A program made the position numbers and the translations under genes. Shown here one piece after another: positions 15,525 to 39,348 of a stretch of 64,000 nucleotides of DNA (positions are counted from its first letter, which is position 1; the number at the start of each line of letters is the position of its first letter). The notes under the pieces were generated by a model. That model did no database searches, had not been told where the DNA came from, and saw only the letters and a list, made by a program, of their open reading frames with translations. The DNA comes from Glycomyces terrestris (GTDB taxonomy: Bacteria > Actinomycetota > Actinomycetes > Mycobacteriales > Micromonosporaceae): NCBI RefSeq assembly GCF_003933745.1, contig NZ_RSEB01000003.1, positions 682,001-746,000 of the forward strand, written 5' to 3'.

Positions 15525-18500
15525 ATGAGCGACTACGGTTACCGCCCCGCCCCGCCGCCCGAAGACGGACGGCCGCAGGGCCGCGCCTCCGGGCAGGGAC
15601 GCGCCTACGGGAGCGCCTCCGGCGGCGGCTCGCGCGAGCCCGATTACGGGTGGGGCGGCGGACCGCAGCAGGGCCGCCAGCAGCCGCAGCAGCAGCCGCC
15701 GCAGTCACCGCGGGGCGGCTACGGCTCGGCGCCGGGGCCCCAGCAGCGACCGCAGGGACCGGCCCGGGGCCAGTACGGCACGCCGCCCGGCGGGCAGGCC
15801 CCGGTCGGGCGCGGCTCCGCGTCCGTCGGCGGCGCCCGCCCCTCCGGCTCCGCCTCGGTGGGCGGCGCCCGGCCCGCGGGCTCGGCGTCCGTCGGCGGCT
15901 CCGGCCGCGCGTCCGTGGGCTCGGCCTCGGTCGGATCGGCCGCGGTCGGATCAGGCGCAGCCGGATCGGCCTCCCCGGGCGGCGCGGGCCGCGCCTCCGT
16001 CGGGTCCGCCTCCGTGGGCTCGGCCTCGGTCGGGAGCGCCCGGCCCATCAACCTCGACGACGCGGACGAGCGCACCGGCCGCGCCGGGGGCAGCCGCCGC
16101 GCCGGCAGGGGGCCCCTGAACAAGGACGACCTCGAGAACGGCAAGAAGAAGCGAAAACGGCTGGGCCGCAAGATGCTCGCCGCCGTCATCGCCCTGGGGA
16201 TCATCTTCGTGGCGTCCGTCACGGTCGTCGCCACCTACTTCCTCCAGAACACCCCGGAGCTGCGAGACGTCTTCCGCAAGGGCGAGTCCTCGGCGTTCTA
16301 CTACTCCGACGGCACCACCCAGGCCGGCGCCTACGGCGACACGCTCCGCCTCCAGATCGACCCCGGCGAAGCGCCCGAGACCGTCACCGACGCCCTGGTG
16401 GCCCTCGAGGACCGCAAGTTCTGGGAGCACGGCGGCGTCGACTACATCCGCACCATGGGCGCGCTCGTCAACAACCTCACCGGCGGCGACACGCAGGGCG
16501 CCTCGACCATCACCCAGCAGTACGCCGGCATGTACATGGACGCCCGCGACGTCATCTCCTACGACCGCAAGGCCCGCGAGGCCGCGCTCGCGATCAAGAT
16601 GGAGTCCGAGTACTCCAAGACCGACATCATCACGGCGTACCTGAACATGGCGTACTTCGGCCGCGGCGCGTACGGCATCGAGGCGGCGGCGAAGAACTAC
16701 TTCGACGTGCCGCTGAAGGACCTGACCTACGGCCAGGCCGCCTACATCGTCATGCAGGTGAAGTCGCCCAACGGCTACTACGACCCGTACTACACCGACG
16801 CGTACGACGAGGGGGCCGCCAAGGCCCGCTGGGAGTTCACGATGGACGCCCTGGTCGAGACCGGCCAGATGAAGCAGTCCGACCGCGACGCGTTCACGTA
16901 CGAGGACATCATCGCCTCCGCCGCCACGGAGTTCAACGCCAGCGGCTCCTGGGGCGGCAACACCGACGTCGGCTTCATCATCAACGAGCAGGACGGCTAC
17001 GTCTTCGACGAGCTCCTCGACCGCTACGGCATCACCAGGGAGATGCTCAAGGGCGAAGAGGAGAGCGGCAAGGACGGCGGCTACTCCATCACGCTCACCA
17101 TCGACCCGGAGATCCAGGCCTCCCTGCGCAGCACCGGCTCCCGCGGCGACATCGCGGTGAAGACCAACGACGAGGGCCAGCCGATCGACGAGGACGGCAA
17201 TCCGGTCACCGACGTCAACCAGGCCGAGCGCGACCTCACCGACGAGGGCTACGCCCAGTTCGTGAACGACAACGACCAGGCCGCCCTGTACGAGTACGAC
17301 GAGTACATGATGACCGCGATGGTCGCGATCGACCCCGAGACCGGCGCGATCGTCGGCTACTACGGCGGCGACGACGGCTTCGGCGTCGACAAGGCCGGCG
17401 CGGAGTCCCCGCACCCGCCGTCCTCGACGTTCAAGATGGTCACCGCCGCGACCGCCCTCGAGGAGGGCGACTCGATCAACTCCTGGTTCAACGGCTCCTC
17501 GCCGCGCGAGTTCGAGTCCCTCAAGCTCGAGGACGCCTGCATCGGCGGCGGCGACTACCCGAACTGCACCCTCCGCAACGGCAGCCAGAACTCGAAGGTC
17601 GAGATGACGCTGACCGAGGCGATCCGCCAGTCGAAGAACACGCCGATGTACTCGATCTCCGAGCAGTACGGCGCCAGCACCATCCTCGACACCGCCGACC
17701 GCATGGGCCTGTCGGTCATGAACCAGGCCCGCCTGCTCCAGGACGACACGGGCAAGGACTGGAACACCTCCGTCAACTACGTGATGCACGACGACGGCAC
17801 CTACACCCAGCACGGCACCGCGGTGAACCCCGAGACGGGCGAGGCGATCACCGACGCCTCCGGCAACTGGGACGTGTACGCCGGCATCCAGGTCGACGAG
17901 GACTGCAACCCGATCGTCAACACCGAGGGCTACTTCCTCTACGCCGAGACGCCCACCCCCTGTGAGATCGGCGGCAAGGGCGACACCGACCCGTTCTACA
18001 ACCACATCTCGTTCGGCCAGTACCCGACGAGCGTGCGCGACATGTCCTCGATCTACGCGACCATCGCGAACGACGGCCTCTACAACGAGTCCCACTTCAT
18101 CGCCGAGGTCAAGTACAAGGGCGAGGTCGTCCAGCCGATCCGCGAGCTCGAGTCCGACCAGGTCATCCAGACCACGACGGCGCAGAACCTCCAGTGGATC
18201 GGCTCGGAGATCTCCGGCGAGTCGTCCTCCGGCGAGGACCTCGGCCGCGACTACTTCGGCAAGACCGGGACCTGGGAGGCCGGCGGCAAGGACGAGGATG
18301 GGAACGACTACCCCGACTCGTACAACGCCCACGCCTGGTACGTCGGCGCGATCCCGCAGCTCTCGATCGCCGCCTGGGTCGGGAACCTCACCTCCGAGTC
18401 CGACCCGATCGCCGACATCGACGGCAACAAGGAGAACGTCTTCGGCTCCAACACCGCCTACCCGGTGTGGTTCACCGCCATGGAGCGCATCCTCGACGCC

Positions 18501-37189: not shown

Positions 37190-38284
37190 CTAGCCTTTTT
37201 TCTTCTTGGAGGTCTGCTGCGCGCCGCTGACCTTCTTAGCCCGCGCGATGCGCTCGGCCCGTGAGAGGTTCTTGCCCGCGCCGGGGCCGCCCTTGGCGGC
37301 GTTCGCGCCGTTGACGCTCGCGCCGTTGACGCCCGACTCCGGCTTCGCCTTCGGGGTCTGGCCGGACTGCTTCGGCTTCTGGCCCGGCTTGGGGGCCAGC
37401 TCCTTGCGGCGCTGCTCGGCCTCGCGCTGCTCCTCGAGCATCTTCTCGTGGGCCTTCGAGCCGGGCTTCGGCGGCTTCGCGTTCGCGTTGTTCTGCGCGG
37501 GCGGCGGGTACTTGTGCAGCACGAACTGCTGCTGTGCCAGCGAGAACAGGTTGTTGACGGTCCAGTAGATGACCACGCCGATCGGGAACGCGCCCGCGGA
37601 GAAGATCATGATGACCGGGATGCCGTAGAGCATCACCTTCTGGATCATCCGCTGGTTCGGGTCCTCGTTCCAGCCGGTCTTGAGGATCATCTGCCGAGTG
37701 GTGAGGAAGGTCGTCAGGATCATCGCCGCGCCGAGGACGCCGGCGACGAGCTTCACGTCGAGCGCGGAGGCGTCGACCTTGGCCAGCTGGTCGGCCGGCG
37801 TCAGGAAGGTGCTCCAGAACGGGGCGCCGAAGAGCTTCGCGTCGACGTAGGTGTCCCAGTTGCTCTCGGTCCAGCCGTAGAGCGTGTGGTGCATCGTCTG
37901 GTCGGGGTCGGGGCGGCGCAGCACGTGGAACAGCGCCAGGAAGACGGGCATCTGGATCAGGATGGGAAGGCAGCCCATGAGCGGGTTCGCCTTCTCCTTC
38001 CGATACAGCTCCATCATCTCTTTCTGGAGCGTCTCGCGGTCGCCCTTGTAGCGCTCTTGGAGCGCCTTGATCTCGGGGGCGAGCTTCTGCATGGCGCGCT
38101 GCGACTGGATCTGCTTGACGAACAAGGGGAAGAGGATGACGCGGAGCGTGATGACGACGCCGACGATGGCGAGGACCCATGCCCAGTCGGTCGCCAATGC
38201 CTGGTTCCCGTCGAAGACGTTCGACCAGAGGTCGTGCCACCGCAGCAGCACCCAGGACACGCCGTCGTAGGCCCACTCCATCAC
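37190..38284 (-). CDS. yidC: Membrane protein insertase YidC/Oxa1
   Basis: A 364-residue insertase with five helices of the YidC core: LAIVGVVITLRVILFPLF, MGCLPILIQMPVFLALFHVL, LVAGVLGAAMILTTFLT, IPVIMIFSAGAFPIGVVIYW, and the N-terminal span. The conserved Arg of the hydrophilic groove is in the first of these (LRVILF). The C-terminal ~110 residues are basic and disordered, ending in SKKKKG, and probably contact the ribosome. A GTG at 38284 has GGAG 7 bases upstream and is followed by an ATG at 38281; both are possible. Confidence 0.93.
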   Translation of the reverse strand: MMEWAYDGVSWVLLRWHDLWSNVFDGNQALATDWAWVLAIVGVVITLRVILFPLFVKQIQSQRAMQKLAPEIKALQERYKGDRETLQKEMMELYRKEKANPLMGCLPILIQMPVFLALFHVLRRPDPDQTMHHTLYGWTESNWDTYVDAKLFGAPFWSTFLTPADQLAKVDASALDVKLVAGVLGAAMILTTFLTTRQMILKTGWNEDPNQRMIQKVMLYGIPVIMIFSAGAFPIGVVIYWTVNNLFSLAQQQFVLHKYPPPAQNNANAKPPKPGSKAHEKMLEEQREAEQRRKELAPKPGQKPKQSGQTPKAKPESGVNGASVNGANAAKGGPGAGKNLSRAERIARAKKVSGAQQTSKKKKG

Positions 38285-38318
38285 TTGCGGACTCCAGTCA
38301 TCTCGCTCTTCGAAATCA

Positions 38319-38843
38319 TCACGTGCTCATCGGTGCCGAGGGGGGCACGGGGTCGAAACCCCCCGGATGAAAGGGGTGGCACCGTCCCAGCCGTCGCAGG
38401 CTCAACCATATGCCACGGACGGCACCGTGCTCGGACAGCGCCTCAAGGGTATATGCGCTGCAACTGGGGTAGAAGCGGCAGCGGGCCGGAAGGGCCGGGC
38501 TTATCCACCGACGGTACGCGACGACCGGTGCCGCGACCACCCGGACCAGGACGGACTGCGCCTCGCGCTCAACGCATTTCGCCGAGGGCGAACAGGAGTG
38601 CAGTGCCGAAGGCGAACAACTACACGGTGCCGAAGGCGAACAACCATGTGGCGCCGAAGGCGAACAACCACACGGCGCCGAGGGCGAACATTCGTGCAGC
38701 GCCGATGGCGAACACGAGCATGGTGCCGAAGGCGAACCGGAGCACTGCGCGGAAGGCGACTCGCACGGCGCCGCGTCCAGGAGGTGTTCGGGGGCGGGGT
38801 GCGAGCGGTCGAGGGGCGCCGGTCCCACGGCGGGGACGGTCAT
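38319..38843 (-). CDS. yidD: YidD membrane-insertion efficiency factor with repeat-rich N-terminal extension
   Basis: A 174-codon frame starting at an ATGA overlap with the rnpA stop. The last ~75 residues are a normal Yid[56 protein letters not shown]. The first ~95 residues are unusual, with eight copies of an 8-residue unit of the type A-[PLQ]-[CH]-x-C-S-P-S encoded by 24-bp direct repeats at 38581-38772. A normal-length YidD would start at an internal GTG just before [11 protein letters not shown]. Frame-preserving repeats and the ATGA coupling favour the long form, but this is not certain. YidD assists YidC-mediated membrane insertion. Confidence 0.8.
38581..38772. repeat. Eight 24-bp tandem repeats
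   Basis: Eight head-to-tail units of 24 bp, each beginning with a GCCGAAGGCGAAC-like segment, with variable last ~10 bases. Unit boundaries are at 38581, 38605, 38629, 38653, 38677, 38701, 38725 and 38749. The period is eight codons and stays in the yidD frame on the minus strand. Confidence 0.9.
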
Positions 38844-39274
38844 GGCCGGCCCCGCTGCTCGCGCGGGCGCCCGCTCCTGGGGCTGCGGGCCGCCTTGACG
38901 GCCTCGGCCAGGTCGCGGTGGAGCTCGTCGTAGTCGCGCTCGGCGGCCTTGGGCGTGGCCCGCACGACCACGTCGGTGCCGGGCGGCCAGTGCGGCAGTT
39001 CCGCGGCGGCCGCGTGCCGCAGGCGGCGCTTCACCTTGTTGCGGACGACGGCGTTGCCGACGGCCTTGGAGACGACGAAACCCGCCCGCGCCGAGCTGTT
39101 CGCTCCGGCTCCGGACGGTGTCGTCTGGTGTTCTTCTGTGCTCTCGCCTGCGCGCTGGTCGGCGCTCGCCGGGGCCCAGTGCACGACGACGCCGCCGCGG
39201 GCCGCGCGGCGGCCGCGCTTGAGCACGGCACCGAAGTCCCGGCTGCTGCGGATGCGCGCGTCGGCTGGTAGCAC
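38840..39274 (-). CDS. rnpA: Ribonuclease P protein component
   Basis: A 144-residue basic protein that binds RNase P RNA and the tRNA 5' leader. The N-terminal [27 protein letters not shown] is typical, followed by a variable ~25-residue insert, then [22 protein letters not shown] with the RNR-type RNA-binding motif. The GTG at 39274 follows the rpmH stop by 74 bases. The stop overlaps the yidD ATG. Confidence 0.94.
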
Positions 39275-39348
39275 TGGATCACGTCCTCATCGGGGTCCCC
39301 CGCGGGCGGGCCGTGGCCCGCCTCGCGCAGGGGTCCGGAGGCAAGCGC

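Follow-up and report, generated by a model that had tools for sequence, protein, structure and literature searches.

A probable lineage-specific coding minisatellite in the N-terminal leader of an ordinary yidD of Glycomyces terrestris

Why should the gene for a conserved membrane-insertion factor carry a string of Cys/Ser/Pro-rich repeats ahead of its domain, and does the protein use them or merely tolerate them? E. coli YidD reportedly helps membrane protein insertion (Yu et al. 2011, as cited in later papers). The question arises from a yidD gene in a 64,000-nucleotide stretch of the Glycomyces terrestris genome (contig NZ_RSEB01000003.1, positions 682,001 to 746,000), which we call the window and to which all positions refer. 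A sequence-only reading of this stretch had described eight in-frame 24-bp repeats in front of a normal YidD, and our analysis bears this out: the array covers residues 28-91 and the domain residues 102-166. The features on which the argument rests are the following.

38319..38843, minus strand: yidD, 174 aa, with an ATG overlapping the rnpA stop (ORF from ATG, PF01809, TIGR00278)
38346..38540, minus strand: canonical YidD domain, residues 102-166 (Pfam PF01809)
38571..38762, minus strand: array of eight 24-bp units, residues 28-91, with core C-S-P-S-A and spacer (P/L/Q/K)-(C/H)-x (Tandem Repeats Finder, unit alignment)
38763..38843, minus strand: non-repetitive N-terminal leader, residues 1-27, nine of whose first ten residues are common to the relatives G006, G013 and G019
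38840..39274, minus strand: rnpA, the upstream gene, its stop overlapping the yidD start (PF00825)
37190..38284, minus strand: yidC, the downstream gene (PF02096)

Behind the array, the protein is an ordinary YidD. PF01809 matches residues 102-166 with an E-value of 3.3e-28 and 97.7 bits (curated cut-off 27) and TIGR00278 matches residues 102-162 with 81.4 bits (curated cut-off 40), so that the protein, like other YidD proteins, lies above both curated thresholds. On the minus strand, the genes stand in the usual order rpmH, rnpA, yidD, yidC, in a cluster that adjoins dnaA, and the yidD ATG has bases in common with the rnpA TGA (38840-38842). This gene cluster is described in passages of PMC10502375, PMC3573977 and PMC8082313, which also present E. 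coli YidD as an insertion factor. All the residues that are invariant in the aligned relatives are found in the window protein, which departs from the family ahead of the RC-F core: 121 residues precede this core, against 25-56 in the array-less relatives examined, and 64 of the 121 form a tandem array outside the family models.

Other observations on this gene concern regions outside the array. At the C-terminus (38284-38345), the window yidD shows a frame change near a run of C relative to its relatives and reads PPSAPMST, where G019, for example, has PPRHEHVMNSKSEMTGVRK; the protein also ends early in G013 and G010. The DNA of this 3' tail is kept and contains GGAG, a possible yidC ribosome-binding site. 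An A/T third base is kept in at least 90% of the Glycomyces loci at 8 of 71 aligned codon sites of yidD (38346-38540), and by the same measure at 3 of 127 sites in rnpA and 0 of 260 in yidC. Special synonymous constraint on yidD was rejected, the identical-codon fraction of 0.748 being overall unexceptional beside 0.730 in rnpA, 0.782 in yidC and 0.912 in rpmH. In the domain, the codon run GCG TAC CGT CG(G/T) TGG (A/G)TA AG is shared with several other genera of the family among the matches listed, and TTATCCACC, on its plus strand, resembles the DnaA box consensus. The plus strand also holds an antisense ORF of 607 aa, and one antisense frame of yidD is open in five of five clade members; open antisense frames are common at high G+C.

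The array is the strongest tandem repeat of the window. Tandem Repeats Finder reports it with a period of 24 (38580-38759, 7.5 copies, score 101) and with a period of 48 (38581-38759, 3.7 copies, score 188, the best of 28 rows for the window), and a second array at 15812-15910 (33 bp, 3.0 copies, score 128) has the highest score after it. Identity between shifted copies of the array is 0.72 at a lag of 24 and 0.69 at 48, while in 2,639 other window stretches, taken as a control, the best of 17 lags reaches at most 0.59. Units two apart have on average 17.6 of 24 bases in common and neighbouring units 16.8. Taken with the preference of Tandem Repeats Finder for a period of 48 and the slightly lower lag identity at 48, this gives weak support to a 48-bp amplification step. 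The unit formula first proposed, A-[PLQ]-[CH]-x-C-S-P-S, fits the array except for a K in the last unit; units 1 and 2 have Glu and Gly, respectively, in place of the first Cys. The repeat extension had been put at about 95 residues. An extension of that kind exists, but the array itself accounts for 64 residues and the remainder is non-repetitive leader, of a sort that array-less congeners also have: their pre-core leaders measure 31-56 residues, against 121 in the window yidD.

The number of units differs widely among close relatives. The state of the array is known in 21 of the 22 Glycomyces genomes, own included, with one genome per species. Within a clade of five species, the window genome (G000) has eight units, G006 four and a partial one, G013 two, G010 a single vestige (GCSPRAK) and G019 none, its leader having only ISPAAK; in the other 16 Glycomyces loci the leader lacks both units and Cys. 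In the remaining genome, G007, none of the yidD and rnpA motifs searched for was found within 2.2 kb around its weak second match. Variation in repeat number, which had been expected among strains, thus holds between species. A tree built from the yidD core and yidC, with the leader excluded, unites the five species of the array clade with support of 96/96 and makes G019 the sister of G000 with support of 94/85. The array has likely, though not certainly, been lost in G019, since this depends on one fork whose support is just below the starred level of the tool. Because close relatives range from eight units to none, the array is probably not essential, its absence from several of them arguing against an essential role.

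Is the array part of a repeat family with members elsewhere? In its own genome, no second copy was found, the 22 other DNA matches all being short with E-values of 0.147 or worse, and since the array occurs once, we rejected a mobile or dispersed repeat. A loose 14-base pattern, with one mismatch allowed, occurs at 221 places in the genome (98 + 123) against 13 for the reversed pattern; among about 100 matches listed, the six exact ones are array units and the rest are scattered single matches, and the excess therefore means that such words are common in the genome, not that the array is. As a query (P0001), the array matched 8 of 354 family genomes at an E-value of 1e-4 or better, including G000 and G006. 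The fetched loci of the six others contain no YidD core, and three of these matches (L140, L142 and L143) plainly fall in a different repetitive frame. A sample of 396 phylum genomes gave a single match, that of the own genome itself. In both searches, scoring was confined to some of the first-look candidates (in the rows listed, at most 17 per genome for the family and 15 for the phylum) and the family search missed the two-unit array of G013, so that short arrays elsewhere would be missed. Within that reach, the statement that no other YidD is known with such a tail stands, none having been found in the 354 family and 396 phylum genomes. Among 103 distinct upstream stretches, taken from 110 YidD loci and leaning towards close relatives of the window YidD, 24-bp arrays exceeding two copies occur in L001 and L003 alone. 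The other repeat rows in these stretches have two to three copies, apart from an unrelated array (best row 41 bp, 3.3 copies) in a Lederbergia locus, L135, that has a short open frame ahead of its core. In the plasmid collection, the DNA query 38200-39300 retrieved one record, from Nonomuraea gerenzanensis, covering 13% of the query and lying within the yidD domain. Among the open-licence titles and abstract beginnings listed, none dealt with a repeat tail of YidD.

It then has to be asked whether the array is real, whether it is read and whether its product or its nucleic acid matters. An artefact of assembly or contamination is hardly conceivable: the array lies inside an 896-kb contig of a genome that is 99.5% complete, and a related species, with an assembly of its own, has a related array in the corresponding position. 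Tandem repeats being prone to mis-assembly, the count of eight could still be inexact. As to translation, we examined 30 loci, own included, of which 29 show a YidD core after an rnpA stop. In the thirtieth, L031 (G023:C416, reverse strand, 1086-1770), rnpA and yidD lie in one open frame with no stop between them, possibly an RnpA-YidD fusion or else an assembly error in a fragmented genome. YidD could in principle begin at an internal GTG and leave the array as a long untranslated spacer; an in-frame GTG does exist at residue 102, and the array differs in codon usage from the neighbouring genes, its GC3 being 0.58 where the remainder of yidD has 0.80 and six neighbours have 0.89-0.97. A recently amplified seed, with codons that never adapted, would be expected to have such a low GC3. 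An ATG or GTG overlaps the rnpA stop in 27 of the 29 loci (19 of 21 in Glycomyces, the window's own included), the two others, L021 and L025, starting 8 bases beyond it, and by eye this codon is usually preceded by a G-rich Shine-Dalgarno-like stretch. In all 29 loci the leader is in frame and free of stops while its length shifts from 25 to 121 residues, a regularity that is hard to explain without translation of the leader. The earlier suggestion that the frame-keeping repeats and the start overlap favour translation is thereby supported; on these comparisons the leader is very probably translated and the tail probably so, and a start at residue 102 appears very improbable.

We consider it scarcely more plausible that the array acts as nucleic acid, through mRNA hairpins or as a putative iterated protein-binding site near the replication origin, with the peptide as a by-product. 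Most units do contain a short inverted repeat, CGCC-N-TC-GGC(G/A), the array belongs to the cluster next to dnaA, and its codon usage is atypical. Against this, the RNA of the array folds no more strongly than synonymous controls, as a structured mRNA element would be expected to do: its folding energy of -71.3 compares with -70.6 (sd 3.8) in 300 synonymous permutations, 127 of which are as low or lower, and with a mean of -77.4 (sd 9.0) in 300 recodings with neighbour codon usage, 230 of which are as low or lower. The G006 array folds more weakly than most of its permutations (282 of 300 as low or lower). No Rfam family matched at gathering score between 37000 and 40500, and scans for promoter-like and terminator-like sites found none in the array, the one terminator-like site lying outside it at 39111-39128 on the plus strand. 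The lack of other copies in the genome and the absence from the sister species also speak against such an element.

A function of the peptide deserves more weight, even if we regard it as unlikely. The (C/H)-x-C-S-P-S-A units could bind zinc, copper or iron or form disulphides, and so make a redox- or metal-tuned tether near YidC. In units 2-8, the core varies in 3 of 15 columns and the spacer in 9 of 9 (Fisher p 3e-4). Codon differences from the core consensus are synonymous in 6 of 7 cases (p 0.003) or, when only distinct variants are counted, in 3 of 4 (p 0.08). With 15 units from four species pooled, the figures become 11 of 17 (p 0.002) and 6 of 11 (p 0.07), the count of distinct variants being the fairer one because an old change is copied along with a duplicated unit. 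Of the 15 units, 8 have Cys and 4 have His at spacer position 7, the three exceptions being terminal units; in 11 of 11 non-terminal units the residue is Cys or His, even though the codons for the two differ at two bases. Together, the conserved core, the synonymous lean and position 7 hint at selection on the peptide. On the other side, the ligands are not conserved: the leader has 12, 8, 1, 1 and 0 Cys across the clade and none in the 16 other congeners, so their number shifts between species. Nor is there a predicted fold. The AlphaFold model (20 sequences, mean pLDDT 57.6) places helices at 93-117 and 125-155 and leaves the array unstructured, with a pLDDT of 42-52 in its blocks; the whole protein gave one chance-level match to solved structures (E 0.66), and the array matched nothing in Pfam (E up to 1) or NCBIfam (E up to 0.1). 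What weakens a functional tail most is that close relatives, among them the tree partner of G000, lack the array or have no more than a vestige of it. The view of the array as a notable functional extension is not supported, the array being missing from the nearest tree relative and from 16 other congeners and predicted to be disordered.

What keeps the Cys/His reading alive, besides its residue pattern, is a second YidD. This independent paralogue (G000:C14:80850-81290; L002:1495-1941, minus strand; L146-L166) is present in 21 of 22 Glycomyces genomes and, in 21 of 21 loci, carries the leader C-x3-C-x7-C-x5-C-x2-C-x3-C, which shows that a Cys-rich YidD leader can be conserved. Pfam and NCBIfam cover only its YidD part in the one member scanned (L034), and AlphaFold, from five sequences, gives a mean pLDDT of 36.9, too low to be informative. 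Like the window YidD, it has its domain behind a Cys-rich N-terminal leader, which is thus not unique to the window protein; unlike the variable array, its six Cys stand at fixed spacing with no tandem repeat, and it is not among the DNA matches of the array. Being strictly conserved, it may be the more interesting Cys-rich YidD. More speculatively, and in our view rather doubtfully, the cytoplasmic YidD N-terminus might be an evolvable string of (C/H)-x-C ligand pairs, in which repeat number would set how many metal ions or disulphides it carries and hence how the YidC insertion site behaves in metal or redox stress, with the second YidD as a fixed counterpart. A functional Cys/His pattern would tie membrane protein insertion to metal or redox state.

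The explanation that we favour, with reasonable confidence, is that the array is a lineage-specific coding minisatellite in the fast-evolving leader, predicted to be disordered, of an ordinary yidD, tolerated rather than required. Its seed would be a short leader stretch, S-P-x-A-K, still single in G010 and G019, which would have been copied head to tail in steps of 24 bp, and perhaps of 48 bp as well, either through slippage during replication or through unequal recombination; the frame survived because 24 is a multiple of three. Translated from a start apparently coupled to the rnpA stop, the array would yield a flexible, nearly uncharged, Cys/Ser/Pro-rich tail ahead of the first YidD helix; if E. 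coli YidD is a guide, this tail would presumably lie in the cytoplasm. Copy number would then climb and drop between species, the tail being tolerated and perhaps nearly neutral. Within one small clade, the locus would document how a coding minisatellite grew inside a conserved gene and was probably lost again, with the likely ancestral seed still visible, and it shows how freely the YidD N-terminus can lengthen. We see the array mainly as an evolutionary curiosity and a possible typing locus.

Two known kinds of in-frame repeat invite comparison. The palindromic, dispersed in-frame elements of the Rickettsia type share with the window units a short inverted repeat and a position in frame within a gene; the array differs from them in having no dispersed copies in the genome. 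Bacterial coding minisatellites, or intragenic VNTRs, consist of head-to-tail units whose length is a multiple of three and whose copy number differs between close relatives. The array resembles them in its head-to-tail units of 24 bp, in its confinement to one locus and in a copy number that differs between close relatives; its particularity is that it sits in the leader of a conserved membrane-insertion factor and that its variation is compared between species.
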